From Polytrichum commune (lineage: Eukaryota > Streptophyta > Polytrichopsida > Polytrichales > Polytrichaceae), in assembly GCA_950295325.1 (NCBI GenBank), contig OX485808.1:40385180-40449179 (forward strand): a stretch of DNA of 64,000 nucleotides. Reading direction: 5' to 3'. The notes below the pieces were generated by a model. The model was not told the origin of the DNA and did no database searches. It was given only the letters and a program-made list of their open reading frames with translations. Both the position numbers and the translations under genes were made by a program. Positions 5,629 through 59,163 of the stretch are shown one piece after another. Numbering within the stretch: the stretch's first letter is position 1; each line of letters opens with the position of its first letter.

Positions 5629-5630
5629 CG

Positions 5631-36179: not shown

Positions 36180-36645
36180 TGTTTAGACCAAGAACCCCAT
36201 TAATAACTCATATTTGTGATGGTTTAGGGTGGGCAATCGAAACCTTAGACCAAATTGAAGGGGACATCTTAAAACATTCATATTAATGCACACAAAATAT
36301 GAGAGCTTGTATGAATATGGTTTAGGTAGGGCAATCCAAACCATAGATCTTATTGAAGGGAAAATCTTAAAACATTCATACTAATGCACACAAAATATGA
36401 GAGCTTGTATGAATATGGTTTAGGGAGGGCAATCCAAACCATAGATCTTATTGAAGCGAAAATCTTAAAACATTCATATTAATGCACACAAAATATGAGA
36501 GCTTGTAATGTATGGTTTAGGTAGGGCACTCCAAACCATAGATCTTATTGAAGGGGAAATCTTAAAACATTCATATTAATGCACACAATAAGGGACTCCA
36601 AACCTTAGACCATATTGAAGGCAAAATCATGTGACACTTATATTA
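36180..36645. repeat. Tandem repeat near the left terminus of copy X
   Basis: Three to four copies of a unit of about 120 bp with GGTTTAGGTAGGGCAATCC, CATAGATCTTATTGAAG and TTAATGCACAC. Each holds a degraded palindrome (GGTTTAGG...CCAAACC), apparently a decayed form of the family site. No gene. Confidence 0.75.
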
Positions 36646-36773
36646 TTGCAAAAAAAAAAAAACATACAAAGTATGGCACGTAAAATGCATAGCATGCTAA
36701 CACCACACATCCATTGGATAGTGCGACCCAAAATCATATTGCCTATGGTCCAAAACCCTACGCCTACTATGGC

Positions 36774-37581
36774 CTATCTAGCCTCGGAGACTGCCTCTAT
36801 CTCTTTTGCTTTTTTTTTTTCTTTTGCCTCTCTTGCTTTTGCCTCTTTTTCTTTTGCTGCGGCTTCTTTTGCTCGCATTGCTTCAACATTCCTGACAATC
36901 TCCGCCCCGCGACTATAGCCATTCTTGGGGTGACCGCCAACAATAACACATTTTGGATTCCGTCGGCCGCCCGAATTATACGACGAAGAATTCGAATACG
37001 ATGAAGTGGATTGTCTTGCATTTCTGGTCATGGAGTAGAAACGCTCCAACTCGACGGACATACTAGACCGCATAGGTTTACGGGTGGGAGCAACCTGCAA
37101 CGCGTCAATGCAAGACCACATGTGTTAGTTTAGGGAGGAAGACCCAAACGTGTCACATGTTCATTTTTTAAGTGCGGGATGATTGTAATGCGCGGTTAAC
37201 CATGTTTGTGGGGGGGGGGGGGTTCACCTTGTCACCGGGGGCGTTCCCGTCGGAGTCGGCGAGGAGGGGCAATGTGTCCCGCAAAGGAATAGGAAGGGTT
37301 CCACTCTTCGTAGGCCGAGCGTCCATCCGCAGCCGCCGTTGAGGTGTACTACTGCCGCCGGGCCGAGAGGGGGATGTCCGGACGCATTTGCGATTTATGC
37401 CTTTGAGCGGTGACGGGGACGCAGATCGCCGGAAGATTTGCTTGGGTGGGGGGCTATCGACGACGCCGGCGTCAAGAGGCTCCTTGGAGTAGTCAATGGT
37501 TGACGCGGCGTCGTAAACGGTCTCGTAGAAGAAGCTCCCCAAGTCTGACTCGCTGACGATGTCAATCGAGGGCTCCAAACG
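36774..37581 (-). CDS. Small basic protein gene, copy X
   Basis: Two exons, 37581-37228 and 37094-36774, with the frame kept across a GT-AG intron that has a G run. Exon a shares YDAASTIDYSKEPLDAGVVDSPP, SPSPL and RRLRMD-like stretches with Y's 55291-55689. Exon b shares the motif NGYSRGAEIVRNVEAMRAKE, followed by a long Lys/Glu/Ala helix. Exon a starts at an acceptor, so an upstream exon is missing from my model; possibly it is spliced from the long gene. Function unknown. Confidence 0.65.
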
Positions 37582-37677
37582 CTGGCGCAAAAAAGGAAAC
37601 GAAACAAAACCCAAAGGAAGAGGGTTTGCTAGAGCGCGTGAAAATCAAGATACATATGAAGCATATATTACACAAAA

Positions 37678-37745
37678 TGAACGGGCGCGCGCACACACAC
37701 ACACACACACACATACATACATATATACACATACAAACACACGTA
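37678..37745. repeat. CA/TA microsatellite
   Basis: ACACAC run followed by ATACATATATACACAT units, between the phosphatase exon and the small gene of copy X. Confidence 0.9.
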
Positions 37746-37750
37746 GTGTC

Positions 37751-38563
37751 TCAAATGAGCTTGTTAAATTTCGCGTGAGATAACAACTCTCTGTACAAAT
37801 GGTCTCGTGGATCCAAGTATCTCTCGCCTATCGGATTGTTCCTAACAAAATTGTTTACGGGCAGTCCGCTTCCGCAGAGCGCCTGGAGGTATTTACTAAG
37901 GTCTAACAAAAATCGGTCCCGGACCTTCTCGACCGTCCACGTAGGGCAAACTATGAGGTTGGCCGTCGGGTTCAACATGTTCTTTGCGGCGCTGTCGTCC
38001 ACTATGAGCGTGTTCTCGCGGGTGGGGCGGACGTCGTAGGGGACGCCTATCAAGGACGGTCGCTGGTCCCAAAAAATGGGCTTCAAGACCTTGAGATATT
38101 AGGGGGAAGCGGGGTTGTTTGGTTTTTTGACGACTTTGCCGTCCGGTGTGTACAATATTCTACAGGCTTCATGTGCTAGGACCATGCAGGGGGGCTCGAT
38201 GCCCTTGAAGATGAACTCCATGACGGCATTGGTGTTCTCGGCCTTCATGGAGCTCCACACGACCACCCACCATCGTTGTTGGGTGATCTGGAGGAAGGTC
38301 CGAAGCCACGGGCGGAGGTGAACTAGCTTGCTCTTTATGAACGTGGGCGGCCCGTCGTAATTCGCGTCCTCGGGCTTGCAAAAGGGCACCGTGGGGGTCC
38401 TCGGGCAATGAACGCATTGGACGAGGACCCCGTTCAGGTCTAACACCAGGAATCGTTTCTTCGGCCGCGGGGGCGGGGCGGGTAAAATCGGGGGTACCGC
38501 CGCGCTGCCCTCTCTGCTCCTTGGAGAAGAGCGTCGGGGAGCCGCTACGCTATGCTCCGAGCC
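37751..38563 (-). pseudogene. FCP1/HAD-like phosphatase exon of copy X
   Basis: Begins after acceptor CCGCAG. Motifs: LDLNGVL (HAD motif I, second Asp replaced by Asn as in plant FCP1-like proteins), RPWLRTFL, VVVWSSM (motif II) and LIVDDSAAKNMLNP (motif III). One TAA at 38099-38101 breaks the frame where Y has Gln, a likely CAA-to-TAA change. The end FNKLI-stop is shared with Y. A Pro-rich linker precedes the domain. Confidence 0.85.
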
Positions 38564-39075
38564 CTGCGGATACGATCGAGAGAAAACGGTGGGCGACTTA
38601 TGTCATGCTATGTCCAAACGAAGCATTAAAGAAACGAGTGTTCTCGGTGCAAACACAAAACCATTTTATTCATTTTGGAGGGGGTGCAACAAGGGACACG
38701 AGAGAGGCAAGAGCATACAACATACATTCAAACACAGGATACAAGTATATAGGAGTAAAAAATGGCGATTATATTGTATACAATGCTCTATGTACATCTT
38801 GATTGGGGGGAGCCGCGTTGAACGATGCGTTCAAACTAGCCTACTTCTACATCTAGAAAAAACTGAAGAGACGGGCCGCCGTGATGAAGACTTCGTCGCA
38901 AGCCGGGGGGTATGTGGACGAACGAATGGTCGGGGGGATGTGGCGAAGGGCGCGAGTGCGGGGGGGTGACGTGTGCGTGAGTTTAGGATAGCTAGGGGAC
39001 ACGACCAAGGCAAGAAGACAAAGACCCAGGGAGTTTGGGTCGACCGACCCAAACTGAGTGGGGTCAGTGCATTAC
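38564..39075 (-). other. Intron of copy X long gene with one palindrome
   Basis: Lies between exon 3 (donor GCGAG|GTAATG) and the phosphatase exon. A perfect GTTTGGGTCG palindrome (centre AC) is at 39033-39054. Open frames are short and unsupported. Confidence 0.6.
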
Positions 39076-39165
39076 CTCGCCTTGGTCGCGCCTTGACGAC
39101 GTGAATGCCGTCACTGTGTGCGCTGCCACACCTCTGTCACCGCCGCCTCCAACGATGACTTCAGC
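39076..39165 (-). pseudogene. Last 30 codons of copy X exon 3, cut off by Y
   Basis: Joined through a single CTCA to 56502 onward, the minus-strand frame is continuous: a Gln-Val-Glu end on the Y-right side leads into AEVIVGGGGDRG and on to a GTAATG donor. This frame continuity is the best evidence for Y's exact boundaries. Confidence 0.85.
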
Positions 39166-39169
39166 CTCA

Positions 39170-39209
39170 AACACTATATTCGTTAATTGGAGACTTTGGA
39201 AAGTCTCAA
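39170..39209. repeat. Left terminal inverted repeat of Y with subterminal hairpin
   Basis: AACACTATATTCGTTAATTG is followed by GAGACTTTGGAAAGTCTC, a perfect hairpin at 39190-39207. The right end (56450-56497) has the same outer bases but two direct AGTCTC copies instead of a hairpin, so the two ends are distinguishable. Confidence 0.9.
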
Positions 39210-39826
39210 AATAAATTGGACCCGTAGTTTCGGATGCGAATATTGTGAACGTAGGGAACATGGGGAACAATGGCAACATAATGTTCGAAAGATCCATATG
39301 TGATGAATATATATGTTTCTAAATATAGTAATTATTTGGGGGATAATCAAAACTACGCCAACACAATATTCCAATGTCACAAATTCACAATTATTTTGTA
39401 TTTTTGATTTTGTATTGAATAAAATTAATGAATCTATAAATAGCCATCTGATTTTATATCTAGGGACTCTTGGATGCGTATCCCAAACATAACATCTTAG
39501 CCAATTGTGGGTGAATTGAACGGCACATCCCAAACGCAACAATATTAAAATAATTTGACAGTGTGTATAAGAAATTGCAAATTAGCATCTGCAATATAAT
39601 TATATAGTTTGGACTCCACATCCGTAAACACAAACATATAAAAAACATTTGATAGCGCATGTGAAGTTGGATTCCACATCCGTAAATCAATACAATCATG
39701 ATATATAATTGTAATCTATAAAATTGCTATAAAATGTGTCTAATATAGTATTCGACCCCAATGTCATATATTTCATGAAAAACCAAGACACATTTCAAAT
39801 AATTGTGGTCCAACCCTACGTCAATA

Positions 39827-42800
39827 TCATTCTCCATCTTCATCTTCAGCTTCATTTCCATTCTCGACATCGTTTTCTGCAGCAGCAATACGTGCCAAGT
39901 TGTCTTTGGCAAAATCTATATGTTTTTGGGGGATGGTCATTGTCTCTGATTTGGAACCTTTGCGTGGTTTCCAAGCACAAAGTATGGTATCTGTGTTTAT
40001 CCATATTGGTTCGTATGCTGAGTCCATTGTCCATTTGAAACCTTTTTTGGTGTCCCACCCTAAATATGTGCGGAGCACATTTTGATCTTTGGTGCTGGGA
40101 CGGCAATATTCCACCTCAATTTGATGAAAATTTGGGCTAGTTGGAACAAAATTTGGTGATGACAATGCTTTTACCAACCAAATCGGTTTAGGGTGCTCCT
40201 CATCTCCAGGACGTACGAGGATCATATACCCTTCGTAGCAATCAACAGCCACACGAAATGATGGAGCCGGACGATTACGAGCTGGGCCAACATAATGGTC
40301 GTCCGCTGCGAACTCTTCACGGATGTCCCCATTGTCGAAGAACATGGCCTCAGATTCCACGATTGTCACTCGGCTTTGTGGCCAAAAACCTTGTGTCAAA
40401 CATGAATGTGTTTCGACATCGGGTGCTAGCAATGCTGAGCGAATGCGATCCCAGTACGTAATCAATGGTTCGTGGGTATCCCGAACACGCCTTGTGATGT
40501 CTTCCTCGCACAATTCTTTCCAATATTGGATGAATCCGGATATACCTTTGATGATTTCTGGTCCATTCCTCATGGGGTTGGGTTTGCAAGGCTTCGGCTC
40601 CCCATCAGGTAGCATACATTTGCCTTCTTCGTTTTGGCGCCATACGAGTATCCCTTCCTCTGGACCCCAATCCGGGGAAGTGCACAAAACTTTGAATTGC
40701 ATGGCCGGCAAACCATCATCACGCATATAGAATCGGAATTGTTGAGCCTTGGTATGGCCCACTAAACGGTCACCTCCCTTAAGAATGAATGGTTCGATAA
40801 ACGCTTTGAAATCGGGCACTTCTTCAATAAAATGCGGGATGACTGGCACATTATCCAAATCCATGTATGATTTCATGAGAAGAGGAATCGTCGGAAAATC
40901 CTCCTCGTGCAACTTCATACTCCAACGTCCAAATGAAGCGTCAATGTCATCATGCGTGTGGCCAACCATAAAAAAAGACACAAACACTTCTTTGAAAATG
41001 CCCTTGGCTACGAGCAATGACCAAAAACAAAACACGTATCGACATTTGTTGTCTTTGGCACAATTGTCCAGTTGCACATGTAGAGTTGGAGGCAAAGGTT
41101 TAGCAAGAACGGTTTGTTCAGGCGGTTCTTGCAGTGACGATAGACATACTTCTTTCCCCTCTAGCACAGCCTCATAAATCGGTGTTGTTCCACATCCAAC
41201 AAAAAGAGCGCGAGAGGATGATGTTGGCGGACTCTCAAGATCTCGTAGAAGTTTTGCAAAAGACCCTACGGTATGATTGGCGTCGCCTGGATAGAAATCC
41301 AAGCCATAATGTGCATACTTGACGTCCACATGGCCATGTGCGATCATACCTGAATTAAGACATACAAATGAGAAGTACATTCCAATATCATTTATAATAA
41401 GGAAATTCAATTTTTCCGCAAGCAGGCCAAGAAAATGAACAAACACTTACGGATGTACATCCGTAACTCTTAACGATGAGTATGTGGGTTCGCAAAAAAA
41501 ATGTGAAAACCAACGAACCTGTGACAGATATTGGGAGCTTGAAATATCCATCTGTAGCCTTTATTTTCCGTGTATAACAAGGGCACGCAGTCTTCGCATG
41601 GTCCATTTTGTCATGAATGATTGTCAAAACCTCATTCGGCCTCATTATCGATAATGCGCGATTCTTGTAGTAGTCTTGACGGTGTGCCTCTTGGTTGTTG
41701 ACATGCTCAATGTATTTCCGTTGATGTCTATTGTGCGACTCAGTCCCTATGGGATGTGCATCTCGAAGGCCCTTGTATTTTTCACAAGCAGAACACCTGG
41801 CAAACTTATCCCCAGGCCTCTTCGTAATGTACTCTGCAAATTGTTGATTCTTGATCACACTCAATTTTGACAACGAAATCGGCCCACATCCAGCCTTTTC
41901 GCCAACCTCATTAACATCCATAAGTATGTTCTTCCATTTTGTCCCTGTAGGCAAAACCATCTGGACAACCTTTTCCCCCGACGGCAGAGTCCGTGTTTTG
42001 TGTGGCATCGCATCTGCTAATGGCATAATGATGGTTGATAGTGTTGCAGCTGCTTGGAGTGTTGCCTCCCTGGGCTTCTTTGTACCAGAGTTGCCATGGA
42101 ACCGAGAACGCCGTCCTTGCAGCGAGTAGTTCCGGAACCTATAAAAATCTGCCTTTGAAACTGCATGTATAATGTACCATGCCGTGCAGCATACCTCTAT
42201 ATTTTCCAAGGTCACAACCTTACGACCTTCGGCATCAAAGTGCATGTTGCGATGGACTTCAAGTTTCTTTGCAGATCGCGTCCGAAAGTCCGCAAGCCAC
42301 ATCTCTTGTCTCAAAGATTTGATTTTGTCACGGGGAAATAGTTGGCAACACATTTTTGCACAACAATCCTTTGTTGCTACGGACCTAATAGATGTGTCTC
42401 CCAATGTTAGATCTCGACGACGTTGCGTGGGTTCACGGGGCACGCGAACGGAATCATATTTACGCCGACCTTGTCTAGGACGCATTGTGGCGAACAAAGT
42501 CTTTTGTATTTCCTCAAAACGACGTGCATGATTCCACAAGCTGACACCATCGTGAAGAACACTTCGCAACGGCCATCGACGAAGAGAGAATCTCCAACCA
42601 GGAGGTACTTCCAATGGATGTAAGGAGTTCAAAATGCACACCCCAACATCTTCCTCCCCAAGGGGATTTGCATCAATACAGTCCATAGGATTTGAGTTCC
42701 TACAAACACCATTGGCCACGGGGACGCCGTATCCATTGACTATGACAACATCAAGATCAATCCATTGTTCCCGCGAATAACCCTCACATGTTGGTATGAA

Positions 42801-42923
42801 ATCATCCTCTGCATTGGCGACACCAATTGTAGTTTCATGTTCCATAACACCTTCAAATTCGCTAGCATAGCTTGACGCTTCCGAAGATAACTCGAATGCA
42901 CTATCTCGGACGTTGGAATCCAT
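39827..42923 (-). CDS. DUF7869-like protein, probable transposase of copy Y
   Basis: Exon 1 is 42923-41519 and exon 2 is 41349-39827, with a 169-bp GT-AG intron splitting a Gly codon as in A and B. About 975 aa, no stop. Start ATG follows a likely acceptor (CTTGTAG). Order: acidic N-terminus, Cys-rich KDCCAKMCC and IEVCCTAWY, a GRRSRFHGN basic patch, DKMDHAKT, LDNCAKDNKCRYVF and GHTHDDIDASFGRWS. The last three fit a D-D-D/E RNase H catalytic set. An acidic C-terminal tail follows. With intact termini nearby, this is the best candidate for an active transposase here, though activity is inference. Confidence 0.85.
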
Positions 42924-43061
42924 GGCCACTACAAGTGACCCACATGAAGAGTATGTCAAAATATCCCATTCAATAAATGTCATGGATAGTCCTAACGCTT
43001 ATTGTCAATGAAACACAATGTCAACAATAGTGGATTTCATGGCCTGGAAACAAAGACACAT

Positions 43062-44108
43062 TGGTATACGAACGCGCGTACGTATATCTCCATGTAACAA
43101 CATTATCAGTGCAAGCACGCGCATACATATGTCTTTATTTGTTCATAGTCGGCGGAAAGGTCCAGACAACAAAAACATGACAGTTTTATGGGCGCGCACC
43201 CGTAAATCTCTTCGTGGTCAAAGAGGTCAATATCATGCGCAAATGTTTTCGCAAACTATACAACATAGGTATACGGACGTGCGTCCGCAAACATCCGAAT
43301 GTCAAAAGTCAGTGTTGTGCAAGACACACAGAGGTTTAGGAAACCAAGATGTCCAGGTGCCAGGTTCCTACTGTGTATTATGAATGTCAAAATATTATAC
43401 TATGACACATAGGGTGATGTAAGCTTAGGGTTTAGGGATCTTATACCTCCATTGACCGTACAGTCTCAATGTAATATTCTACATGGCACATAGTGAAAAG
43501 TATGGAACCAAAGGTTTGCAGGTTTACGGATGCGCGTCCGTAAACCTCTCTGTACCTCATTACTAGCACAAATAGGTTTAGGTTACTGGACGTGAGTCAG
43601 AAAATTTTCATGACAATACAGTCTCGTTGGTATACTATACATGGCAAGTGGTCATGATGTCAGCTCAGGTGCAATACCGAACAATGGAACAAAAAGGTGC
43701 AAAAGTTTACGGACGCGCGTCCGTAAACCTCAATGTAGATGAAATAGGTCAAGTATAATTCTCACTGCAATAGATATCCAATCAAGCAAGAGGTTAAAGG
43801 TTTACGGACGCGCGTCCGTAAACCTTAATGTACATGAAATAGCTGAAGTATAATTCTCACAACAATAGATATCCAATCAAGCAAGAGGTTTAAGGTTTAC
43901 GGACGCGCGTCCGTAAACCTCAATGTAAATGAAATAACTCAAGTATAATTCTCACAAAAATACATATCCAATCAAGCAAGAGGTTTAAGGTTTACGGACG
44001 CGCGTCCGTAAACCTCAATGTACATGAAATAGCTCAAGTGCAATTCTCACAGAAATAGATATCCAACCAAGCAAGAGGTTTAAGGTTTACGGACGCACGT
44101 CCGTAAAC
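43062..44108. repeat. Palindrome array upstream of the DUF7869-like gene, copy Y
   Basis: TTTACGGACG-arm palindromes near 43062 and 43270 (variants), 43523, 43708, 43801, 43895, 43990 and 44083. From 43690 to 44110 they sit in a tandem repeat of about 93 bp (AACCTCAATGTA, AATAGATATCCAATCAAGC, AAGAGGTTTAAG). The central pair is mostly CG. The array is 140-1190 bp from the start codon. Confidence 0.92.
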
Positions 44109-44109
44109 C

Positions 44110-47100
44110 TCCGTGATTTGCGGCGCCATAATAGGACCATTTCACCAGGAACGATACTTGCCATAAACAAAAAATCAATCACTATAAGGATCCAGACAGT
44201 GCAATCCACATAAAATTGGCTCCACTAATGGGTTTATGGCTTGGAATTTAGTGTTTAGGGTATAAAAGGTCCATTGCAATAGGATCTGTACCTGCACGAA
44301 ATAAACATCCAAAACACTACAAGGGTCCAAGCAGCGCAACCCACATCTGAGATGCAAAAAGAGTCCCTTGGTGGAGGGGTGTCCCCTTAAGTACTGATCG
44401 TTTCCCTTGGATCCGTTTTCCAACATAGGATACTAGCCACCATCTACGTCCTATAAATAAAAACCTAACATTACTACATTCCGTGTGCCAGCCTTACAAT
44501 GGAATGTGTATTCATAGTGGACAACATGCATAGACGATGAGTCCACATAATGACAAAGCAAAAGGCATCTACGTATTTATGGTGGACAACAAAGAAAATA
44601 GGCTAATAATATATGAGCATTGAACATTGTTGAGGGGTGGTTTATAATATCGAAGTACCTAATATTGAGAGGTCATTGTAGAACTAGGAGACAGAAAATT
44701 ATAGTGTCGTGTGAAACATCAACCACAACAACAACAATAGTACATGGAGTATAAAAATACGTGTCATTCAAAATTAAACTAGCATCTATTTTATTGTTTT
44801 GCATACGATGTAATGATATTCACTCCAATATCATGTTATCTCCTCTCATCTAGCATTTAAACTAGTAATTACATTTGCCACCACCCTACCATCCAACCCG
44901 TTTAATTTACCCACTTTTACACACCTATACATAATTATACTAATACGTACACAAACTTTGAGCGCCTAGATGCCATGAAAATAGCACATCTATTGTCATA
45001 GGCACTATGGGTTGCTTTAAAATCAATATTCTCAATTTCCTCTCTTAACTTTAGGGCCCCCTTCAATACATCAACATTTATTTCAAAAAAAATAATACTA
45101 GCATTCTTAATGTACTATACGTGAGACAAAAAACAATTTTTAGTACCCCATGTACATTATCTACAATATTGACTCAAACAATAGCAGTTGTTGTTCTAAG
45201 TAACATTATGAGCCCAACAAACCATAATGGAGAGAAGGGGAGGGTAGGGTATCCAAATATTATAAAGGCAAGCAATTTTAAGTTGGTGACAGAAGGGGGA
45301 TACTCTCATTAGTTCATACGTGGTACCCTAAATCCTAAACCCTAAACCCTAAACACTATACCCTATACCCTATAACCGCCCACCCCTGAACAAACACAAC
45401 GACATACGGTACGCATGGTTAACTGAATAACTCCCAATACATGTGTAGCCTTAAGTGGAAGTAATTCAAAACTATATGACTACCTTTAAATTTTGTAAAA
45501 TAAAACCATAAACATTTCAAATGTGAAGCAAATTTAGGGGTAACCTTACCTTTCATTTTTTAAAATCTTTCTTTGGCTTTAAACCATTTGCTTTAAACAT
45601 ATACTTTTGATGAAAGGTTTTGAAGATCGTATATTGGTATTCTATAATCGAGTCCTAAACACAACTCACCACCGAAAGAAAACTCCAAATATAAACAAGT
45701 TTGCTACTACTTATAAGCGATAATACAAGCTGAGGCCTATGTGTGGAAGGATTGGATGGATCCGAAAGGTTGTTTAATGTACAAGAGGGATGTACATTCA
45801 ACACATACCCATGCATTTTGTTTTAATACAAGCTTAGACCTATGTGTGGAGGGATTGAATTAATCCGTAATGTTGTTTAAGGTATTACAAGCATATGAAT
45901 TCTCCCCATATCTCGATGTTTCGGTTTTGTTAATTGCGTTTCACAACTTATTGCGATAATTGAGGGATTCACAAGTATTTCTTGGCAAAGTTTCATGAGA
46001 ATTTGTGGCCAATTGGTATATTGCCCCAATTGCATTTGAATCCCACCTTTGAGAAGAAAAAGAATTCTTATACTGAAGTTAATCAACAAGACATCCTTTT
46101 ATTGAATATTATTACTATTATCGAAATATAGAGTCCCCTCCATAGCTCGGGGGGTGCACTGTACTAAACATGTACGAGTTATACGTGAGTGCACAGGAGG
46201 GGTATTGATTTGGACCTTGCCGTATTGCATATACATATGGTATACATGTTATAATTTATAGTTACGTACATATATGGAAGGCCTTTAAAAAGTATAGAAT
46301 AATTGTACTTGTATGGTATTGTTACTATACTATATATCATAAGTGTTCATATTGGATAAGTTTTCATAAGGTTTGGTTTGTTGGGAGAGTTTATAGGATG
46401 CGGAGGAAGTTTGGTAATCGTTGGGTGGAGTATAGGGATCCATTTGACTTGATGGACCGTCCATCAAACGTGGAGATTGGTTTATGTTGGTATCAAAAGG
46501 GGCTAACAACAAGTGGACATATGATCTTATTGATCATTCCATGGTAGACTTCGAGACAATAATTGCATTTGTATACTTATGTTAATGACTCTCGGGGGGG
46601 GGGGGGGGGGCAGTCATTGGTTGGAGTAGCAATATACGTGCAAACAAATGATAGGGTATTTTAAAAACATGGGGGCAAAAAATTATAAATGGACTTAAGA
46701 GTAATATAGGGTATCAAAAATGGCACTGGACATCTTTAAAGTAGTATAGGGTATGGAATAATTGGTAATTTGGAATTATAAGTAATGCAAGCCATTTTTC
46801 TATTAACCCAAAGTAGAAATTTATATAATGATAGCATGTGAAAAAAAATAAGAGAATTGAAAGTAATACCCCCCTATATCCTTATTTTTTTAACACACTG
46901 CCCCCCCGAGTAATGACTAATATATATGAATGGATGTTTTTTTGTGTATACATATTGTTGCTTGTATATTTATTGTTGCAATTGTATGTGTATTACTTCA
47001 TTTCACAAAAAATCACTTGTATATATTAGGGGGTTTTTAGAGTATGCAGTGAACGCACGTGATTCTAGGTTTTAATGAAAGGTGCTCCCCCACTCTCCAT

Positions 47101-47480
47101 AGAGGCCACACTAGAAATTGTAGTTAGTTTCTCTCATTGTTTGGAGTTCCAAAATGATATTATTATTATTATTGATGTCATTTAATTGTTGACAATGACA
47201 TAATAATTTACTCAACCTCACACCCTAATATAATTTCCTAAAATAATGAATACTTTCTAGAGCTCGTATGAATATTTCACTCATTATCAAAAGTGAAGAG
47301 AAGAGGCAACGAGATGGCTCATTTTATATTTAGAGTGACATTTAGTGTGACTTTTAACTTGCCTTAGCATAAACATAAGATGTTATTATGACATAATATG
47401 ATAATAAAATCACCAAACTAAGTATAAATTAAACCCCTATTTCAATACCAAATATAGACCAGTAGGGTGATGCCACGTAA
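44110..47480. other. Non-coding centre of copy Y
   Basis: AT-rich, without a supported gene. Contains an interstitial CCCTAAA tract (45329-45370), a G run of about 17 (46593-46610), ATT repeats (47160-47175) and a roughly 100-bp repeated segment (near 45735 and 45835, AAGCTGAGGCCTATGTGTGG type). Copies A, B and X have comparable centres with telomere-like tracts. Confidence 0.5.
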
Positions 47481-48905
47481 GGGTATAGGCCGGCGATTGG
47501 GCGCGACGTTTGGGGTAGGGACACGTGGAGGCACGCCATTGTTTTAGGGTTCCAAGTACTCCAGCACCCTTTCGCCCTCGCTCTTCGTGCTTTTCCTTCC
47601 TTCTCTATCATCTCTTCCTTCCGTTCCTTCTACTGTTGCTCTTGCTTCTCTTGCTTTAGGGTTATAGGGTTTCAAAGTACACCAGCTCCCTTTTGCCCTC
47701 CTCTTCGTGCTTTTGCTTCCTTCTCTTGCAACTCTTGTTTATCTTGTTTCTCTTGTTTCTCTTGTTTCTCTTGTTTCTCTTGCTCATCTGCTCTTGCTTC
47801 TCTTGCTCATTTGCTCATCTTCTCTTGCTCATCTGCTCTTGCTCATCTTCTCTTGCTCATCTACTCTTCTTCTCTTGCTCATCTTCTCTTGCTCAACTTC
47901 TCATCTTCTCTTGCTCATCTGCTCATCTTCTTTTGCTTCTTTTGCTTCTCTTCACTTTCTTCTCTTGTTTCTCTTGCTTCTTACCCTTATCTTCACTTTC
48001 TTCTCTCTCTTCTCTTGCTTCCCTTGCTGGTCTTGCTTCTCTTTCCTCACAATGCAAAACTCATTCTTATTGGTCAATTGCTGACGCGCGTCAGAGCTAG
48101 AGTAAGTTCTCCTTGTTTGCTGCTCATTTGCTTATTAGCTCATTAGCTCATTAGTAAGTTTTGCTTGCTGCTTGCTTGCTTGCTGCTCATTAGATCATTA
48201 GGATGCTCATTGTTGCTTGCTACTGCTCATTAGGTTGTTTTCAGTTGTTGATCTCAGTTGTTGCAAGGGTAATTAGTGTTTCAGATGTTGCTCATTAGGG
48301 TTTCAGTTGTAGCTTCACCATGTAGTTCATTATATTTTTTGCATACAAATCAATAGTTTCCTTTCACTTGTGTTGCATGAATCTGATTTATGAGCAACTT
48401 TTTTGAGTAGTTCTCAATGTTGAATCATGCATGTGCACATTGAATTACTAGAGGTTTCTGACCTCAATTTTATTGTTCATTTGCAGTTGGTATTAGCTGC
48501 AGCAGGAGCAGCTAGTTGTGGTTTAGGAGCAAACACTCTAGAAAGGTAAGTTTTTTAGAACATTGCAATTGCATTTTGTATGATTGCAATTTTGGGTTGT
48601 TGTGGTTTAGGGCTTAAGGTTAGCATGACAGAATGTGAGATTCCAGTTTCAAGGAATTCTGAATTTGTTTAGTACTTTGTCTATGGCTACATTCTAAGAA
48701 TCATTTAGTTATGGACATGTCAGTGTTCTGAAAGTGCCTTATGTTGTCAATCTGCAGTGCAGTGTTTGCTATTGCAGTGAAGTAAAATTGCATTCTTATT
48801 TGGAGGGCAAAACCATATTGGACGACAAGGTAAAGTCCCGAAAAACACGGAGCATTAATGAAAACATTGGAATACGCAAACATTACAATAGCCTTTATAA
48901 TCCTC
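47481..48905 (+). promoter_or_regulatory. Leader region of copy Y long gene, with pyrimidine-rich tract
   Basis: A GC-rich piece (47485-47545), then TTCTCTTGCTCATC-type repeats to 48060, then GCTCATTAG repeats (48110-48240). GT-AG pairs around 48550 and 48840 suggest non-coding leader exons. Long open frames here are repeat artefacts. Position and composition match the leader blocks of A, B and X. Confidence 0.5.
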
Positions 48906-48908
48906 AAA

Positions 48909-49640
48909 GTTTACGGACGCGCGTCCGTAAACTTTGTGGATCTTTGTGTAGGTGAGAGACAAGCCTCTCAAACAACATATTACGCAAACGAAGCCAAATA
49001 TTGTAATATTAGGCATATTAAAATAGCCTTTATAATACTCAAAGTTTACGGACGCGCGTCCGTAAACTTTGTGGATCTTTGTGTAGGTGAGAAACAAGAC
49101 TCTCAAACCGCATATTACGCAAACGAAGCCAAATATTGTAATATTAGGCATATTAAAATAACCTTTATAATACTCAAAGTTTACGGACGCGCGTCCGTAA
49201 ACTTTGTGGATCTTTGGGTAGGTGAGAGACAAGCCTCTCAAACAATATATTACGCAAACGAAGCCAAATATTGTAATATTAGGCATATTAAAATAGCCTT
49301 TATAATACTCAAAGTTTACGGACGCGCGTCCGTAAACTTTGTGGATCTTTGTGTAGGTGAGAAACAAGACTCTCAAAAATATATGTAGGTGAGAAACAAG
49401 ACTCTCAAAAATGTAGGTGTGAAACAAGACTCTCAAAAAAATATTAACCGTAACTTGAATACATTGATATTTACCACCATACTATCTTTGCGAAGTTTAC
49501 GGACGCGCGTCCGTAACTTATAGAGATATTTGAGTATATAATATACGCGTTATGCGTATTTGGAAGAAATGTATCTTTTCATTTGGATCCAAAAATATAA
49601 TTGAGACAATTTGGAAAACTTTACGAACGCGCGTTCGTAA
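48909..49640. repeat. Palindrome array upstream of the ParB-like exon, copy Y
   Basis: TTTACGGACG palindromes near 48909, 49046, 49181 and 49317, in a tandem repeat of about 136 bp (ACTTTGTGGATC, GTGTAGGTGAGA, GCCAAATATTG), plus 49496 and a TTTACGAACG form at 49620. The array lies 60-790 bp before the ATG. The frame crossing four units (48855-49436) is a repeat artefact. Confidence 0.92.
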
Positions 49641-49696
49641 AGTATGATCTATATCTTTTGCCAAGAATTCTAACTTATCTATCTTATCATTTGCAG

Positions 49697-52600
49697 ATGG
49701 CATCTAAAAAGAGACATGCAATTGAGATGTTCGCAGAAGCTCTCATTCCTCCGCTACTAGAAGCCATCAAAGACATAAGTCCCAACGACCATTACAAGCC
49801 ACAAGATGAAATTGTGGATAATTGGACAGTATTGGTAGAAAAGGACGAGAAAGAAATATTTGTGCTTAGATTTGCATATCAAATGAAGACGGACATAGAT
49901 GAAGCTGAGAAGTGGATAAAGCTTAAATCGTGGACAGTAGAGTGTGCAGTGGCACAAGGGGATTATGTAGTAATAGACCTTGAGAAGAAAGAAGATCGGG
50001 TCACTTTCATTTTGCACGAATCCTACCACCCCTTCAACAAAAATGAGTGTGAGAATGCTAGTACAGATGCGGCTTGCTTCAATCTCCAGACGGAGTTCCA
50101 AGACTATGCATGCAATGCACCTTGGACGGGTAAGCGGCTTGGACGACTCTTGAACAATGTAACAAGAGTAAATGGAGCCTTGCTAGAGGCCAGAAAGGGG
50201 AAAGATAAGAAAAAACAAGTCGTTCCTGAACGACCTAAGCGTGTGCCTAAACCAGTGCCGGAATCCTCAAGGCCCTCGCAGAGTGGTGCATCAAGAGGGA
50301 GCAGACAGGCGAGTAAACGCTCTCACTCGCAGATGGACTCTGGACTAACAGAGGGTCCGGATGTCAGCTCTACACTGACTGTCGCTCCACTCCTCAAAAA
50401 GGGTCAACGCCCTGACGCCGAACTCTCAACAAAAATATTCCAAGAGTTCGATGAGAAGACGAAGGGATGTTGGCCCCTTGGCAGGTATTTTACTTTCGAA
50501 GTAGATGTCTACAAATGCCACAAGGGCACCGAAAGTATGAATACCAGAGCAAAAGAAGAAAGCGGTGTATGGTGGCAAATGAACAACATCATGAACAACC
50601 CCAAGTTTGACAGGCAAACCATTTGTGTGACACCAAAGGATCCTATCGTTGAAGTCAACGAAAAAAATTGGCCGATTCTCAAGAATGGAGAGTTCTACAT
50701 TGTCGACGGCCAACATAGTGTAATGGCTGCAAAAGCTCTCCTTGAAGACGACGAGTGGAAAAGCCCATTAAAGGAGACAATCCGATATTGGAAGGCATTC
50801 GTCGTGCATTCCAAGGACTCGAACCAACTCATAGCAATATCTGCCTTCATGAACCAGGGGAATAAAGTGAGGCAGTTCGAGGCTTCATGGGCAGCCAACA
50901 TCGTGGCTGGGAGGACCTTGTGGGTGGAGCACGAATGTCCCCCAAAAGAAAGAGATAATGCTGTCGTGAAGAACCCAAAATGACAGGTATGTTACTCAAA
51001 TAGATTTACGGACGTGCGTCCGTAAATGTGGCCCTTCTCCTCCCACTGCTTCAAATATTTGAATTTAATTTGTACTGAATTCAATGTTCTGATTTCTTGC
51101 AATTCGCGCCTCTTGCAGACATTCAGCAATGCCATATTGACAAAGTTCTCGAGTATAGACATGAAGACAAGCGGCATGAAAACAGTGCATGAATTAAAAG
51201 GCGAACTCAAGCTCATCACTGCAACAGAAGAGACGTGGTCAATATGGTTGCGACTTTTCGATGCCCACAACAACGGCGACCTTGTCAATCCAGATACGGA
51301 GAACACCTACAAGAGCGACTCAAAAGTTAAGGTACCACCAATCCTGCGAGAGTTCTTTCGTCCCCTCCAAGGATTGATGGACTCGGAGCTGTACAGGGCA
51401 GCAGAACACATTCTTCTAGAAACTCCTAGAAGAACTTTGCCCTATCCCAAAATCTTTCTGAAGCGGCCGAAGCACATGAAGCCATCCACGTACCACATTA
51501 AGGAATGGTGCGATTACAGAAAGAAGAAGACCATGGCTGTAAGGGAGATTAGCAAATTGCTGCCCACCCACAACCTCATTAATAGTGATGGTGAGATCGT
51601 GTGGGAGAATTGGAGGAAGCTGAAGGGTGAATACCACATCAATGGCGTCTCAATGCGAGCTTTGATAAGAGGGGCATCATCCTTCCTTGCCCAACGATCC
51701 AGAAGGAACGAAAAGAAGGGATCCATCGACGAGAGGGAGGCAGGGTTGTATGTTCACTTTCTCGATAGGAAAAAGAACGCGAAATTTGGAGGGTTTGCAA
51801 GATTCTGCACGGTCGCAAAGGGCATGAAGTTCGGCGCATGGGACACCCATGCTTCAAGAGCCTCTGTGAGAGATGACCCCAGGGGTTGCCCTTTCGCCAT
51901 TTTTTATTTTCGTGCAATTCCCGGAGCATGGAAGCAAGACGTTGCGGGAGCACCCTTCTACGAGCCCTTCTTAAAAGCCTTCAAGAGCTATCGCTCGCCT
52001 GCCCTCTTCGAGCCTCATGTGTGGTTATGGATTGTAGAGCAAGAGAGGTCCACATCCATTGTCCATCTGTACACATCAACGATGGACCTCGAATACGATA
52101 TGTACCACAGCACCTACATCCCAGCGAAGACAGAAGGGATCACTTTCATTCAAGAGGCAAGGGGGGTGAAGCAAGTGGGAGCTGTGCAGCTTTATTTCTT
52201 AACACGCAAGTCTTCCCCAACTGGGCGATTGCCCATTAAATCACACGAGGTGTTCAGGAAAGTCTATTCGTTGCCGCCACCACATCCCAAGGAGCTTGTT
52301 GAGGAGACAATGCATGCAATCTATCCGGCGTTCGAGCTCCGGATGGACTTTTATATAGGGGTCTTGAAGGCTTTAACTGTCATGAGTGAGACAGTTTACA
52401 ACGTCTTCGGAGGCACGAAGTTTATGTATGCAGCACTGGTGAGTATTTGTTTGTCTTTCAACCCACCTATCTTTTGCATAGTTATTTTACGGACGCGCGT
52501 CCGTAAAAACCCAGTATCAGGTGCATGTGAATTTTATGACCGTGCGTCCGTAAAATTGTCCAACTTTTGAGTGGTGGTTTTACGGACGCGCGTCCGTATA

Positions 52601-55198
52601 ACGTGTTGACATCTAGCCTCATTTATATGCAATCACCACTATTGTTCTTATCTAATTTTCTTGTTATGGTCCAGATGCTTGGCTTGCAGGTGAATTCTTT
52701 TGTGCAGGATTCCGACTACGATGACGCCCATACTCACAAGGTAATGGCCTCCAAAATGGATATCCAGGACATCATGGACGTCCTTACACCCCATCCTGTT
52801 GTGCCTCTTTCTTCTAGAGAAGAGGCAATGCCCGGAATGGAGACAGACCCTGAAGAGGACCAAGATCCCAGTTCCCCAAGAGCGCAACCCTCCACACAGG
52901 AGCCTTTACACGGCCTTGTTCGCGACCCAATTAATCCAAGTGCTTTCCTGCTGGGAACAGACGACACGGATGCGCAGGAGGCACGCGTGAACTTCACTCC
53001 GATAAGGGTCCCTCATACCCCTGTTCTCTCACCTTTTGGGACTTCCACCTCTCGAGTTGGATTTCCCTCAACTGCGGGTCCATCTCGTGCTCCAGGAGTT
53101 ATGGCCGAGAAGGATGTGGACCTTGCGGCAGAAGGCGGATGCACCGCTTCATCTGGAGGGGGATCTCAACATTCAGATCTACCCCCTATGGAGGGGAGGG
53201 ATGTGCTGGAGTTGATATTGAGGCCTGATATCTCTCTATATCGTGAGAGTCGACGAAAGAGGAACAAGACGCCATACAACGAATACCCTGAAGGCGCGGT
53301 CTTGGAGCTCTCCGATGAAGACGAGGATGAGATTAGGATTCACAATGCCATCTCTGCCTTGCCTACGGAACCTGGCAAGGTGAAGAAAGAGCCGATGTCA
53401 GTGTCCGAATTGGACGAGAAGATGGAGAGGCGAATGAAGGAAGAGCTTGACCAACGGCTTCGAGAAGCTAACGAGGAGCACGCCAAAAAGATGGCCGCCA
53501 TCCAAGCTGAGATGGAGCAAGCTAGGTTGGAGTCTGCTCGAAGGCACGCCGATCTCATGGCCCAAAATCAACAGTTCTTGGCCCAAAGTCAACAATTTAT
53601 GAGCCTGATGCAGAGCTTGCAGGCAAGACCCCCTGTAGTCTATACAGCTCCCGATGCCGTCATGTCTATGCCCCCCACTCTCATGCGGCCTCCGTCTAGT
53701 AGCCATGCGGTGTATATACCCGAGCATGCTTATCCAGCCCCCGCGTTGATTGTCCCGCCCTCTCCCCTTGTTGTCGCCACTCCAGAGGAGCCCTCCTCTC
53801 ATCCTACAGGAGTGGAGGAGATACCGGCACGTGACATGGCGGGTGCCGCCGAGACAGATGTCAATGAAGGCAATGCCCCCATCGGCGATGAAGATGTACA
53901 TATGCGGGGCAGCCAAGACTCCACAGATGAGGATCAGCCTTACGTGGATACTCAAGGGTCGCAAGCGGCTGGAGACACCTTGTTGGTGGTCGAAGATCTG
54001 GACAATTTTGCGGACGCGCGTCCGGATCCTGTGCCCATGACGGGGCCAGGTGAGGGAGGCACTGCTGGCGCGGACCTCGCCCTTGAAGAGGTAATCAACC
54101 TTTGAGCATGCCTCCCACGTTACGGACGCGCGTCCAAAACTTCCTTGTCTGCCTCCTTCGTGGCGTGTGTATATTATCGAGTTCAATCCTCGACTTCGCC
54201 CGGCGGGTGGATACAATTTTGTTAGCATAGATTCCATTAACTTCAACAGATATTTTTTGCGACAATGTATATTATTCACCAAATGTATATCACCAATTAC
54301 ATTAATACCAATTTTTCAACTGGATGGTTCGGATTATTTTTGGCCTTATAATTTGTGTTGAGTTTATCCATGCTTGTCAATTGGTTTTCTTGAGTAGTAC
54401 CATTTACCTAGATAGAATGTTCCATCACAGGGTCCGTCGGAGATATGTCGCAACCCCGCGGGAAAACCAAGCGCGCCCATGATGAAACCGTTCATAATAT
54501 TTGACCTCAATGGGGTGCTTTGTCAATCCAAACATATCTCGAATAGTGCGTCCAAGGGGCCCTTCCGTAGTCCACAAGACATGGATTACGGCGGACATTT
54601 CGATACTCTCATAAATAAGAAGGTTGTACGTGCCCGCCCCGGTTTGAGGAGCTTCCTTCGTGAGGTCCTTGGCTTCGCCCATGTCATCATCTGGAGCTCT
54701 ATGCTCATGGACAACACGAAGGCCATCGTCGGTTTCCTTTTCCGAGAACTCGCAATGCCATGCTTGCTTCTCGGTCAAGAACACTGCGATGACCTCTATG
54801 ACCGTAGTGGCAATATTGTACCCAAGGTCGGAGGGGGTCGTGGGCCTCAATTCTTAAAGGTCCTGAGGAAGAACCTCTGGGTGGGCGTCCCTATGTTGGA
54901 GGGGGTTCCCCACGGTTGTTGGCCCACCCCGGATAACACACTCCTCATTGACGACAGCCCGGCAAAGAGTATTCTCAATCCCCCGGGCAATTGCATATTC
55001 CCGGATCCTTGGGAAAGCGATAGAAATGACAACTTTCTAGAGAGTGAACTAGGACCCTACATTAGGAGGCTTGCCTATCACCCCGGAAGTGTCCCGGATT
55101 TTGTGCTCTCCAACCCAATTGGCAATAGGCCTCTAGGCCCACAAGATGAGGAATTTAGGAGATTGTACGGCTACGCTAGACTCAATAAATTAATATGA
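49697..55198 (+). CDS. Long four-exon gene: ParB/DGQHR-like, unknown, coiled-coil and FCP1-like phosphatase
   Basis: Exons 49697-50986, 51119-52438, 52675-54090 and 54431-55198 all join in phase 0, about 1,597 codons. Start ATG follows acceptor TTGCAG. Exon 1: ParB/DGQHR-like domain with DRQTICVTP (305) and IVDGQHS (337). Exon 2: unrecognised conserved region. Exon 3: acidic SIM-like LELSDEDEDE, VKKE, then a coiled coil (about 53410-53620). Exon 4: HAD motifs DLNGVL, IIWSSM and LLIDDSPAKSILNP. TGA at 50981-50983 replaces Trp found in X and B, three codons before the donor; it would truncate the protein unless exon 1 ends there naturally. Role is inferred: binding the palindromes. Confidence 0.72.
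51005..51026. repeat. Palindrome in intron 1 of copy Y long gene
   Basis: TTTACGGACG arm, centre TG, 18 bp after the donor. It matches the intronic sites in B and X. Confidence 0.92.
52487..52600. repeat. Three palindromes in intron 2 of copy Y long gene
   Basis: Near 52487 and 52578 (good TTTACGGACG sites) and 52535 (degraded). Copy X has seven sites in the same intron (57953-58189). Confidence 0.85.
54008..54140. repeat. Palindromes at the 3' end of exon 3 and in intron 3, copy Y
   Basis: One palindrome (GCGGACGCGCGTCCG core) lies inside the coding sequence at about 54010-54025 and encodes ADARPD. A second, partial one is at about 54120 in the intron. Copy X also has sites inside exon 3 and intron 3. 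Confidence 0.8.
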
Positions 55199-55290
55199 AA
55201 ACTTTGATGATTTTGGGTTTGTACTTGGACTCTCCATGTAAATATCTAACATTTCTCCCCTTATCTTTGTAATGTATTTTTGTGTCTTAG

Positions 55291-56187
55291 TTGCCTCACC
55301 AAGCACCCAAAAGTGTCGTCAATGGCATGTCTGCATCTCAGGCAGACACCGGCTCCCTTTCCCTTGGTATGAGCGACGTTGCAATGCCTTCACTATTCCA
55401 ATATTCGGCCGTCGATGCTGCCTCTGCTGTTGATTACTCCAAAGACTCCGGGTTTGAAGACGGAGTCGTGGATAGCCCTCCTGCAAAGGTTGCAAAACTC
55501 AATTACTCTCCAAGTCCATCTCCATCTCCCCTCCGCAGTGAGAAGCACGTCCGTAACCCACGGTCGACCAGACGCCTTTGCATGGATGAACCCCAAATTG
55601 ATGTCCCGGCGTTTGCGAACGTCCCTCTCGGGCTTGTATCTACACCCGTCGATGTCCCAAAAGCTCTAACCAGCGCCCCAAAGGCGAAGGTGCCCAACTA
55701 TTGGCATTCTCAAGTTTTTCCTTGATGATTTCCGTGTATTAGTGCATTTCAACTTCTTGGGTTTTTCGGACTTCCATCCGTAACTTGTAACCACTTATAC
55801 TAACCCACTTCATTATATATATTTATGGTCATTGTTCAGACCCCAATGTACACGAATGTGGGCCGGGCATCATCGACTTCGTCATTGGATAGGCGAACAC
55901 TGAAGACAACTTCTTGCGAGTCTGATCGTTGTTTGGCCCTACGGAAGAGTGCAAGACGTTCGGTTTCCCAAACGCATTCGTATTCCACTTATTCGGAAGG
56001 GGGTCGGCAAATATGGGCAAATGGCGCATATTCGGGGTCAACAAATAAACAAGGTTACAGCCGCGGACCCGAGATCTTTAGAGCCATGGAGGCCATGAAA
56101 GCAAAGGAACGTGAAACGGCCATAAATGCTAATAATAGTATTGCAAAAGCAAAAGTAGTGAGTCGTAATCATGATCCGAACGTATAG
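55291..56187 (+). CDS. Small basic protein gene, copy Y
   Basis: Exon a 55291-55689 and exon b 55840-56187 join in phase 0 (donor GCGAAG|GTGCCC, acceptor GTTCAG). Shared with copy X: DAASAVDYSKD, GVVDSPPAK, SPSPSPSPL, RRLCMD, and in exon b QGYSRGPEIFRAMEAMKAKE. Exon a begins at an acceptor 92 bp after the phosphatase stop. Either a leader exon lies upstream or the long transcript is alternatively spliced onto it. Ser/Pro-rich then basic; function unknown. Confidence 0.65.
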
Positions 56188-56449
56188 GCTATATTAACAT
56201 ACATGTAGTTGTGGAATTATGTTTCTAGGACTTTCGCCTAATATTGGATATTCCACTTGCATTTTATACTTCAACCCCTATTCAATAAATATGATATTGA
56301 TTTTCCATATGCAAATGTTTTCATATATCCCATTTTCTTATTGTTAATGTGTAGTTCCATGCATTTGAGTCTCTTATTTGTTTCCAAAATTGGGAACATA
56401 GCATATTTTTAGTGTTTTCATTCCTATAAATGTGAAAGCCACGTCCTTA

Positions 56450-56497
56450 AATAGTCTCAAAATTAACAAAAAGTCTCCAAATAACGAATATAGTGTT
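56450..56497. repeat. Right terminal inverted repeat of Y
   Basis: Ends TAACGAATATAGTGTT at 56497, followed by the target duplication CTCA (56498-56501). Two AGTCTC copies lie just inside. Confidence 0.92.
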
Positions 56498-56501
56498 CTC
56501 A

Positions 56502-57870
56502 ACCTGCTCATGCAAAGGCTGACTGTCAGGCCTTTGTCCCAACCCAACCTCCGCATGCGCATCATGCATTGGTTCATCGACTGGGTTAGGAGTAGAGGTA
56601 TCACCAGGCCCTTGCGGGCCTTCAACATCTAACATGGGCTCGTCCACCGGGGTCTGGTCGGGGACGGGGTTTGGGTGGGCCGACCCAAACCCTGCTGCTT
56701 GGCGAGCGTCGCTCTGGGACGCTGCAACGTCGGCACTGTTTGGGTCGGACGACCCAAACATGTGGGGGTCGTCCCGCTGGTGGTGTGGGGGCGAGAGGAT
56801 GGGAGGCCGGAGCGGCGGGGGCGCCAACGAGCTGGACGCTCCGGGGACGCGCCAAAGGTTGGGGTCGTTCACCTGCTGGACGGGCGCGTAAGGGCGGGCG
56901 TGAGGCTGCAGCAAGTGCGCGAAGCTGAAGGACTGCTGCGGCGTGGGCCGCGTGCCGATATCCTGTGGAGGAAAGCCTGCGGGCAAGTGAAGGAATGAAC
57001 TCGGGGGAGCCATCACCAATCCCTACGCCAGCATGCCCTGGATCACTTGCGTGATCAGGTCCGCTTGGGACGGAGGTGGGGCCATCGCCCTTTGCCGCTC
57101 CTGCTCCAACAAGAGAGCCCTCAACTCCGCGACTTCGTTGCGGACCGAGGGCTCCTCGGCGGCGGCCTTTTCCAATCGGACGCGTTGCTCCTCGTCCCGG
57201 AGCATCTTCGCGTTGGCCTCCTCCACGGTGAGGACCTCGGGTTTCACCTTCACCATCCCGGCGAACGCTGTGGGAGAGGCAGGATCCGACCTCAGCCTCT
57301 TCGCGAGCTCCATGTCGTCCTCGTCCTCGGAGCTTATGGCGATCGTCTCCTCCACCGCATAGTCGCTGTATAATTTCTTCCCCTTCAGCATTCGCCGCTC
57401 CCTGAAGGTGGCCGTCGCGTCCCTCGAATACATGTCCTTCGCGTCGGCCACCGTTAGGACGGGTACTAACTTGCTCTGCGGCGTGGCAGCCCGCATGGCC
57501 TTCTTCCGCTGAGGGGCCTCGGATTCTTGAATGAATCCTGTTGCCCCTTCCTCCACCTCTCCTTCCACTTTCTCCTCCTCCTCCTCTTCCTCTTCCTCCT
57601 CCGCAACCTCGCACCTGCCTCCACGGACGGATTGCCCGGATGCAATCCGATGAGGGGTTCTGGCAATTGAACGGGGGCCTACATGACGAATTCGCCTGGG
57701 TTGATTCGCCTGGCCATATCCAACGGGTTCTCGCCCCCGTCGACGATCTCTTCAACGTAGGATCCGGGTATCCAGTCGAGGATGTCCATTCTCTTCGCCA
57801 GCGCCTTCTGGGTCCTGTAGAATTGAACATCGGCATCCTCCACATAGGAGTAGATGTTCAACCCAGACAT
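56502..57870 (-). pseudogene. Copy X long gene, exon 3: coiled-coil/SIM region, broken
   Basis: Starts after acceptor TGTACAG with MSGLNIYSYVEDADV, homologous to MLGLQVNSFVQDSDY in Y. TAG codons at 57679-57681 and 57023-57025 and a frame change near 57600-57650 break it. Preserved: an acidic Glu run, SIM-like TIAISSEDEDD, VKPE, a coiled coil (VRLEKAAAEEP to LLLEQERQR) and a Pro/Gln-rich tail. Two family palindromes (56669, 56738) fall inside the coding sequence. Copy Y splits the 3' end. Confidence 0.78.
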
Positions 57871-58224
57871 CTGTACAATCCAAATCAATAGTATTAGTAT
57901 CACAAATGAAGAATAAGCAAAAATAACACCCAAAACAAAACAAGAATACTTAGTTTGGGTCGAGCGACCCAAACTGTGCATGCCCATAGTTTGGGTCGTT
58001 CGACCCAAACTGTGCATGCCCCTAGTTTGGGTCGCTCGACCCAAACTGTGCATGCCCCTAGTTTGGATCGAACGACCCAAACTGTGCATGCCCATAGTTT
58101 GGGTCGAGCGACCCAAACCAAGCATGCCCATAGTTTGGATCGCTCGACCCAAACCAAGCATGCCCTAGTTTGGGTCGCTCGACCCAAACCAGGCATATAG
58201 ATCCACGAGGTTAGTTTCTCACCA
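57871..58224. repeat. Intron 2 of copy X long gene with seven palindromes
   Basis: GTTTGGGTCG-arm palindromes start at 57953, 57989, 58025, 58061, 58097, 58133 and 58168 with 36-bp period and spacer TGTGCATGCCC or CAAGCATGCCC. Five are perfect; two have GGATCG arms. Centres alternate AG, TT, CT, AA. This is the most regular array in the window. Confidence 0.93.
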
Positions 58225-58374
58225 TTGCTGCAAAAACCGGTTTGGAGCCCCCGAAGACGTTGAAGATGAAGTCCCCCCTCTTCGTGAGGGTCCTCATCAT
58301 CCGCAGGTAAAAATCCATCCGCGGGGTAGTTGGCGTACTTCGCCTCGTCGTACAAGCTCCTGCTGGTGCCCAAC
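58225..58374 (-). pseudogene. Copy X long gene, 3' fragment of exon 2
   Basis: Encodes RMDFYLRMMRTLTKRGDF and FNVFGGSKPVFAAM before a GTGAGA donor, homologous to RMDFYIGVLKALTV and YNVFGGTKFMYAAL in Y. The upstream part is lost at an LTR fragment. Confidence 0.8.
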
Positions 58375-58999
58375 TGTCGCAACCCTTGCTAGTTTTCCTT
58401 CACCCAGCTTGACCGCCTTTCCAACCTAGCAAGTGCCACGAGCGCTAACCTGCACATCCCACACACATGCATGGTTAGCTCCCAAAACCGCGGACCTTCA
58501 AGCTCATGGCTAGGTCACCAAACCCTCCTACACATGCATTCGGGACTCTCCCCTTTGTAGGTAGCCAATGGCTAAGGTGGACTTCCATCCATGGAAGTCC
58601 ACTCTTAAGTTGATCATCGTGTTGCCAAAACAACACTACAACTACCCGGAGCACATTGCCAAGTATGCTCCGGGGGGGTCGGTCGGCTAAGCCGCCTCAC
58701 CCATATAAGCCTCTAGGACTTTGGGCGGGGCCCCTACCCCACCATCAAGTATCCTTTTGTCTCTCTACAAGGGTTGGGGCCAAGTGGACATTTTCCCTTA
58801 GCCGCTGGGGCTAGAACCTCCCAGCAGCTTCAGACCACCATAACTTCTACATATGATGTCTGATGCTCTCAAGCGACCACTCTATCGTCATCTACTCTTT
58901 GCGTAGATGCCGATGGAATCCTCACCTGCCCCATTCGAGCAAGTATTGAGGAAGTTATGGCTCCTCAAACCTTGGCAGTCCCGGGCACCACTCCCAGGT
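58375..58999 (-). mobile_element. Truncated, diverged LTR of the 4653-type retrotransposon
   Basis: Reverse orientation, starting TGTCGCAACCC at 58375 and stopping mid-LTR at the CCTGGGAGTGG segment. About 625 bp of the 976 remain with many substitutions. Exon 2 resumes directly at the break, so a deletion removed the rest of the LTR and most of exon 2. Confidence 0.85.
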
Positions 59000-59104
59000 C
59001 GCTGTGATCAAGTAGATTTCTCCTCTTAGCTCGTTATATTTTTTTTGCTTGTGGCTAGCGTTGTCAATAGAGGAGAATTTATTGATCATCTGGTATTTGA
59101 AGTC
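59000..59104 (-). pseudogene. Copy X long gene, 5' fragment of exon 2
   Basis: Starts after acceptor TGTACAG and encodes MINKFSSIDNASHKQKK and ELRGEIYLITAT, homologous to the start of Y exon 2 (ILTKFSSIDM, ELKGELKLITAT). It ends at the LTR fragment. Confidence 0.8.
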
Positions 59105-59163
59105 CTGTACATGAAGTCAAGAACATATGTTAGAGAACACATCATGAAAAAAATGGAACAGCA

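Follow-up and report, generated by a model that had tools for sequence, protein, structure and literature searches.

A recently active giant transposon of the moss Polytrichum commune, most likely of the Sola superfamily, with a ParB-fold gene and family-specific palindromes

The 64,000-nucleotide stretch of Polytrichum commune DNA analyzed here (the window, located on the contig labelled C6) raises the question of which kind of mobile element occupies positions 39170–56497, and what a ParB-fold protein and arrays of palindromes might do for it. The first-pass annotation had described this segment, termed Y, as a complete DNA transposon with exact ends, and this description was confirmed by its termini, target-site duplications (TSDs), same-length genome copies and empty sites. 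Y comprises 17,328 bp. Its terminal inverted repeats (TIRs, 28 bp; left, 39170–39197, + strand; right, 56470–56497, − strand) are complementary at 27 of 28 bases, as annotated, and the ends read AACACTATA with the termini AAC...GTT. The annotated CTCA duplication was likewise read directly on the left (39166–39169) and on the right (56498–56501), and its length agrees with the 4-bp TSDs found genome-wide.

The 408-Mb assembly was searched twice for left ends of Y, and 40 of about 830 first-look candidates were scored each time. Near-identical left ends were present in 40 of 40 scored candidates in both searches, corresponding to at least 47 distinct places. The left flanks that were read were mutually different, except for L037 and L038, which have a common flank. 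When 40 left ends were paired, 26 had a right end at a distance of 17,106–17,350 bp, six had one at other lengths, and eight remained unpaired. Right-end stretches were taken for 20 copies, and 17 of them, with both flanks readable, were testable for a TSD; in L039 the right end was absent from the stretch taken, and the left flanks of L057 and L058 were unread. An exact 4-bp TSD was found in all 17 further copies and in Y itself. The duplicated 4-mers were mildly A/T-rich and diverse: the 18 sites comprised 17 different sequences, none of which was TTAA. Four of the 29 distinct left flanks in the L001–L038 set end in CACTA (window background about 0.0009 per position), which suggests that the target preference may resemble the element's own TIR.

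Empty sites were searched with a 180-nt query consisting of both Y flanks fused with one CTCA. In all 40 places scored among 227 first-look candidates, the query matched over its full length, uninterrupted, with 93–97% identity. Therefore, the insertion site of Y lies within a member of an older, numerous family, termed X, and the added DNA is exactly Y plus one CTCA. Over the last 1,700 bp, 19 copies showed a median pairwise difference of 0.18% (maximum 0.71%). For the first 1,500 bp, 28 sequences were compared, a set that counts Y twice (window and L002), and the median was 0.40% (maximum 3.0%). Y is thus a cut-and-paste DNA transposon with exact ends, 4-bp TSDs, empty sites and dozens of near-identical copies, and given median differences of 0.2–0.4% its burst is recent.

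The host element X is split by Y into a right part (36060–39165, − strand; right TIR at 36060, NIF exons) and another part (56502–61019, − strand) with a ParB exon in the ORF 59203–60603 and its own palindromes, TTTGGGTCGNNCGACCCAAA. According to the first-pass annotation, removal of Y restores the frame of exon 3 of X. A 208-aa open frame indeed spans the rejoined site, but another in-frame stop lies upstream in that exon. Similarly, the claim of four copies with a common architecture was partly right: Z shows the DUF7869 side only, W is interrupted, and X leaves the window. In the window at 36031–36103, a single base separates the left end of W (36058) from the right end of X (36060), which indicates that one of the two landed right at the terminus of its neighbour. 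Direct repeats of 82% identity (18892–19372 and 24372–24859) interrupt gene B of W. Beside the left end of Z, at 16133–18259 (− strand), lie a protein-kinase-like ORF (16133–16837, Pfam Pkinase at 1.8e-6, below the cut-off) and a neighbour, both unrelated to the gene B exons with which they were compared. Furthermore, a 977-bp repeat occurs at 4653–5629, 10905–11881, 30724–31697 and 58375–58998; two copies are 100% identical, the third is inverted with 94%, and the fourth shows 76%.

Y carries two divergent genes, A and B, which are under protein-level constraint. Gene A (− strand) was modelled with two exons (41519–42923 and 39827–41349) encoding a protein of 975 aa. Exon 1 contains the conserved motif HDKMDHAKT, and exon 2 matches DUF7869 (PF25273, 3.2e-39), in agreement with the DUF7869-like protein noted before. 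Named moss relatives of this protein come from Ceratodon and Physcomitrium (41–48% identity). Of 91 relatives identified, 32 were aligned; the alignment revealed three conserved Asp positions, located in the motifs HDKMDHAKT, QxDNxxxDNKN and GHTHDDID. In these relatives, the Pfam family Transposase_21 was absent, and Transposase_23 (TNP1/EN/SPM) reached an E-value of 0.13 in one of 32 only. In a structural model (pLDDT 67), the order of strands and helices is compatible with that of an RNase H core, but the putative core matched no solved structure in a PDB search; the label transposase therefore rests on motifs, position and mobility, from which gene A is the probable transposase of Y, with a DDD-like motif.

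The traits of Y were compared with those of several superfamilies. CACTA (En/Spm) elements require a 3-bp TSD and CACTA/CACTG termini, and Ginger elements require 5'-TG...CA-3' ends with TIRs of 40–270 bp; neither agrees with the ends, TIR length or 4-bp TSD of Y. Kolobok and piggyBac target TTAA, which none of the 18 sites contains. Zisupton (KDZ) elements produce TSDs of 8 bp, and Mutator-like elements, to which the VANDALs belong, TSDs of 7–12 bp, so that the 4-bp TSD of Y disagrees with both.

A different picture emerged for Sola, for which passages of PMC10741241 describe DDD transposases, 4-bp TSDs, sizes of mostly 2–9 kb with some elements over 15 kb, and presence in Physcomitrella. Y shares with Sola (PMC10741241; for Sola2, PMC3627910, as far as the passages available describe it) a 4-bp TSD, TIRs, a length above 15 kb and a moss host. 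Its 28-bp TIR falls inside the reported range of 11–1124 bp, and the three conserved Asp of gene A, together with the strand-helix order of the model, may reflect the DDD/RNase H trait, although this part gave no match in the PDB search. Among the closest known systems is Sola1-1_Ec32 from the brown alga Ectocarpus, a 21.5-kb element published in 2025, in which a ParB-like gene lies opposite the transposase and is joined to a DNA methyltransferase; its authors propose that proteins of this kind bind the transposon that encodes them and modify it epigenetically (PMC12477816, passages). Like this element, Y is giant, Sola-type and equipped with a ParB-like gene divergent from the transposase, whereas in Y the ParB-fold exon shares one gene model with an FCP1/NIF-like domain and an unnamed domain in exon 2. 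Words beginning with palindrom- or phosphatase- did not occur in a search of the main text of PMC12477816.

On the basis of these published traits and the giant Sola1 with its ParB-like gene, we file Y as a probable Sola1-type element. The statement of the first-pass annotation that Y matches no superfamily is thus not supported, since TSD, TIRs, the three-Asp DUF7869 protein, size and moss occurrence fit Sola. Most likely, Y belongs to the Sola (Sola1) superfamily and to its ParB-bearing kind, a placement made by comparison with published descriptions of Sola. That the 4-bp TSD agrees by coincidence and that Y represents an undescribed superfamily is rather doubtful. Named Sola transposases entered the comparison by description only, DUF7869 was not met in the literature searched, and other superfamilies make 4-bp TSDs as well; against this stand the DDD-like motif combined with the 4-bp TSD, moss occurrence and size, and the published Sola1 with a divergent ParB-like gene.

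Gene B (+ strand) comprises four exons. Exon 1 (49697–50986) encodes an N-terminal beta domain and a ParB/Srx-fold domain (residues about 262–391) and carries an in-frame stop at its last-but-one codon. Exon 2 (51119–52438) encodes a conserved domain of no named kind (52% to W), exon 3 (52675–54090) a poorly conserved linker, and exon 4 (54431–55198) a NIF/FCP1-like phosphatase domain (PF03031, 4.4e-13) with the motif DLNG. Two more ORFs (55291–55725 and 55804–56187, + strand), conserved in X, are alternative exons or a small gene. Structural re-alignment to bacterial structures assigned exon 1 to the ParB/Srx alpha/beta fold, and the GQH and N..NK columns of this domain are invariant across 14 sequences; what we take to be the position of the bacterial GERR-type loop reads DGQH. 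The ParB-to-phosphatase protein of the first-pass annotation was recovered within one gene model. The NIF domain suggests a contact with RNA polymerase II. As DLNG departs from the usual DxD motif of NIF/FCP1-type phosphatases, this domain may bind rather than dephosphorylate.

The stop in exon 1 was surveyed with an exact 24-mer pattern at the donor junction, which detects copies that are otherwise unaltered there. It matched 38 genome places, 34 without and four with the stop. Y itself and two neighbouring copies account for three of these four; they lie on C6 within about 0.2 Mb and have different TSDs (CTCA, ATTG and AAAG). Most simply, a stop-bearing copy jumped locally at least twice, which would mean that gene B acts in trans, that the stop is tolerated, or that gene B is unneeded for jumping itself.

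The palindrome arrays that had been noted were mapped upstream of both genes. Y contains 21 sites like TTACGGACGNNCGTCCGTAA (20 bp, parS-like, up to three mismatches), compared to a chance expectation of 0.01–0.04 per palindrome type in the window. The array upstream of gene A (43524–44106) consists of six sites, five of them at 95-bp steps, and the one upstream of gene B (48911–49640) of four sites at 135-bp steps plus two, the last of which, at 49621, is the single site of W half-site type in Y. Further palindromes are located in the intron of gene A (41447–41466), in intron 1 (51006–51025), intron 2 (three, 52487–52599) and intron 3 (54120–54139) of gene B, and between the last two ORFs. 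Twenty of the 21 are noncoding (P = 1.5e-5; by the exon model, 51% of Y is noncoding), or 13 of 14 with the arrays collapsed (P = 0.001). Even with three mismatches allowed, the outermost 2,277 bp on the left and 733 bp on the right are free of palindromes, which argues against transposase sites at the ends.

Families differ in their half-sites, which read TTACGAACG in W and TTTGGGTCG in X, and X-type arrays also occur upstream of gene A of Z. Genome-wide counts were 878 for the exact Y 22-mer and 9,731 for the X-type 20-mer, whereas the reversed controls gave 0. Among the first 50 Y-type sites listed, 30 were assigned to Y-family elements (two of the four element extents being assumed from their ends), and only one was more than 10 kb from another. 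A satellite-like array of 17 X-type palindromes at about 78-bp steps was observed at G000:C1:616089-617357. The palindromes of Y are the probable, predicted binding sites of the gene B protein.

Whether palindrome type and gene B change together was analyzed with 77 publicly available relatives of exons 1 and 2 of gene B, many of which run on into an intron. Half-site types in these intron tails were scored by peptide signatures, which were defined after inspecting the tails. Of the 47 proteins in the Y clade, 14 showed the Y-type and none the W-type; in the W clade, the W-type was found in 14 of 28 and the Y-type in none. One of the two outgroup proteins showed the X-type, and the other 48 of the 77 relatives were without any type. 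Inside the exons (29,040 residues), no protein carried a Y- or W-type signature. The intron tails of P0114 and P0121 read LRPRGRK, which suggests a further palindrome type, perhaps with ACGTCCG half-sites. As both are carried by a single element, these counts demonstrate linked evolution of site and gene; a function of the palindromes is suggested by the joint change of the two arms at many sites and by the recurring intron position.

Bacterial ParB proteins bind palindromic parS sites, similar in length to the 20-bp palindromes of Y, and spread from them. Gene B shares with ParB-parS/Noc the ParB/Srx fold, by structural re-alignment, and palindromic sites of similar length; unlike the bacterial genes it is eukaryotic and intron-containing. 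A second likeness is found in Arabidopsis, where the motifs of VANC21 and VANC6 lie upstream, in introns and in tandem, are family-specific and mainly noncoding (PMC5735166, passages). Like VANDAL21 with its VANC protein, Y encodes a protein together with short, noncoding-enriched, family-specific motifs in upstream, intronic and tandem positions, but VANC motifs are arrayed in one orientation and those of Y are palindromic (PMC5735166, passages). Neither palindrom- nor ParB occurs in the text of PMC5735166.

The VANC-like placement of the motifs and the ParB-fold protein, taken with general knowledge of ParB, suggest self-recognition with anti-silencing or transcriptional support. With moderate confidence, we favour the reading that Y is a recently active giant Sola (Sola1) transposon with gene A as transposase and gene B as a ParB-fold protein for self-recognition and VANC-like anti-silencing via its own palindromes. 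DNA binding, CTP use and anti-silencing are what we infer for gene B. As a self-recognition accessory protein, it would load, through its ParB-fold part, on the palindromes that Y carries ahead of both genes and inside introns, coat or bridge the DNA in the manner of bacterial ParB at parS, and deliver the FCP1/NIF-like domain to chromatin or to RNA polymerase II, so that the element would stay transcribed and unsilenced, as VANC achieves for VANDAL. Since gene B and its palindrome differ in concert from family to family, the protection would mostly be confined to a family's own members. More tentatively, a eukaryotic transposon may have domesticated a ParB-parS module that nucleates on thousands of family-specific palindromes and spreads, with the phosphatase-like domain marking active chromatin and the specificities co-evolving.

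Other roles of the palindromes seem less probable. With two arrays directly upstream of two divergent genes, gene B could be a conventional autoregulator, an operator-bound activator or repressor of both genes that marks no chromatin; this is unlikely, as four introns and the space separating the last two ORFs also hold sites, far from promoters, and the genome has X-type arrays of as many as 17 sites at other places. CACTA subterminal repeats bring element ends together and ParB proteins bridge DNA, and a 17-kb element might need such help if gene B or the transposase bound the palindromes in transposition. We consider this improbable in view of the site-free stretches at both ends and of the apparent local jumps of copies with the gene B stop. 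Selfish tandem repeats or structure-forming DNA with no protein partner are very improbable, since, despite the tandem arrays, the intron tails of relatives contain such sites again, the two arms vary jointly from one family to another, and palindromes avoid exons in Y.

In the literature searched (titles, beginnings of abstracts and passages), neither a phosphatase-type partner, nor visible palindromic sites, nor their covariation was found. A ParB-like protein of an algal transposon has already been reported, with no palindromic target named in the main text searched (PMC12477816). Y adds a probable target that is readable from the sequence, namely family-specific palindromes beside and inside the genes, so that binding specificity, co-evolution and anti-silencing can be tested directly. 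In a single genome of 408 Mb, just two palindrome types contribute over 10,000 sites, and with the system of Y, the problem that VANC solves in Arabidopsis would have been solved a second time, in an apparently unrelated way.
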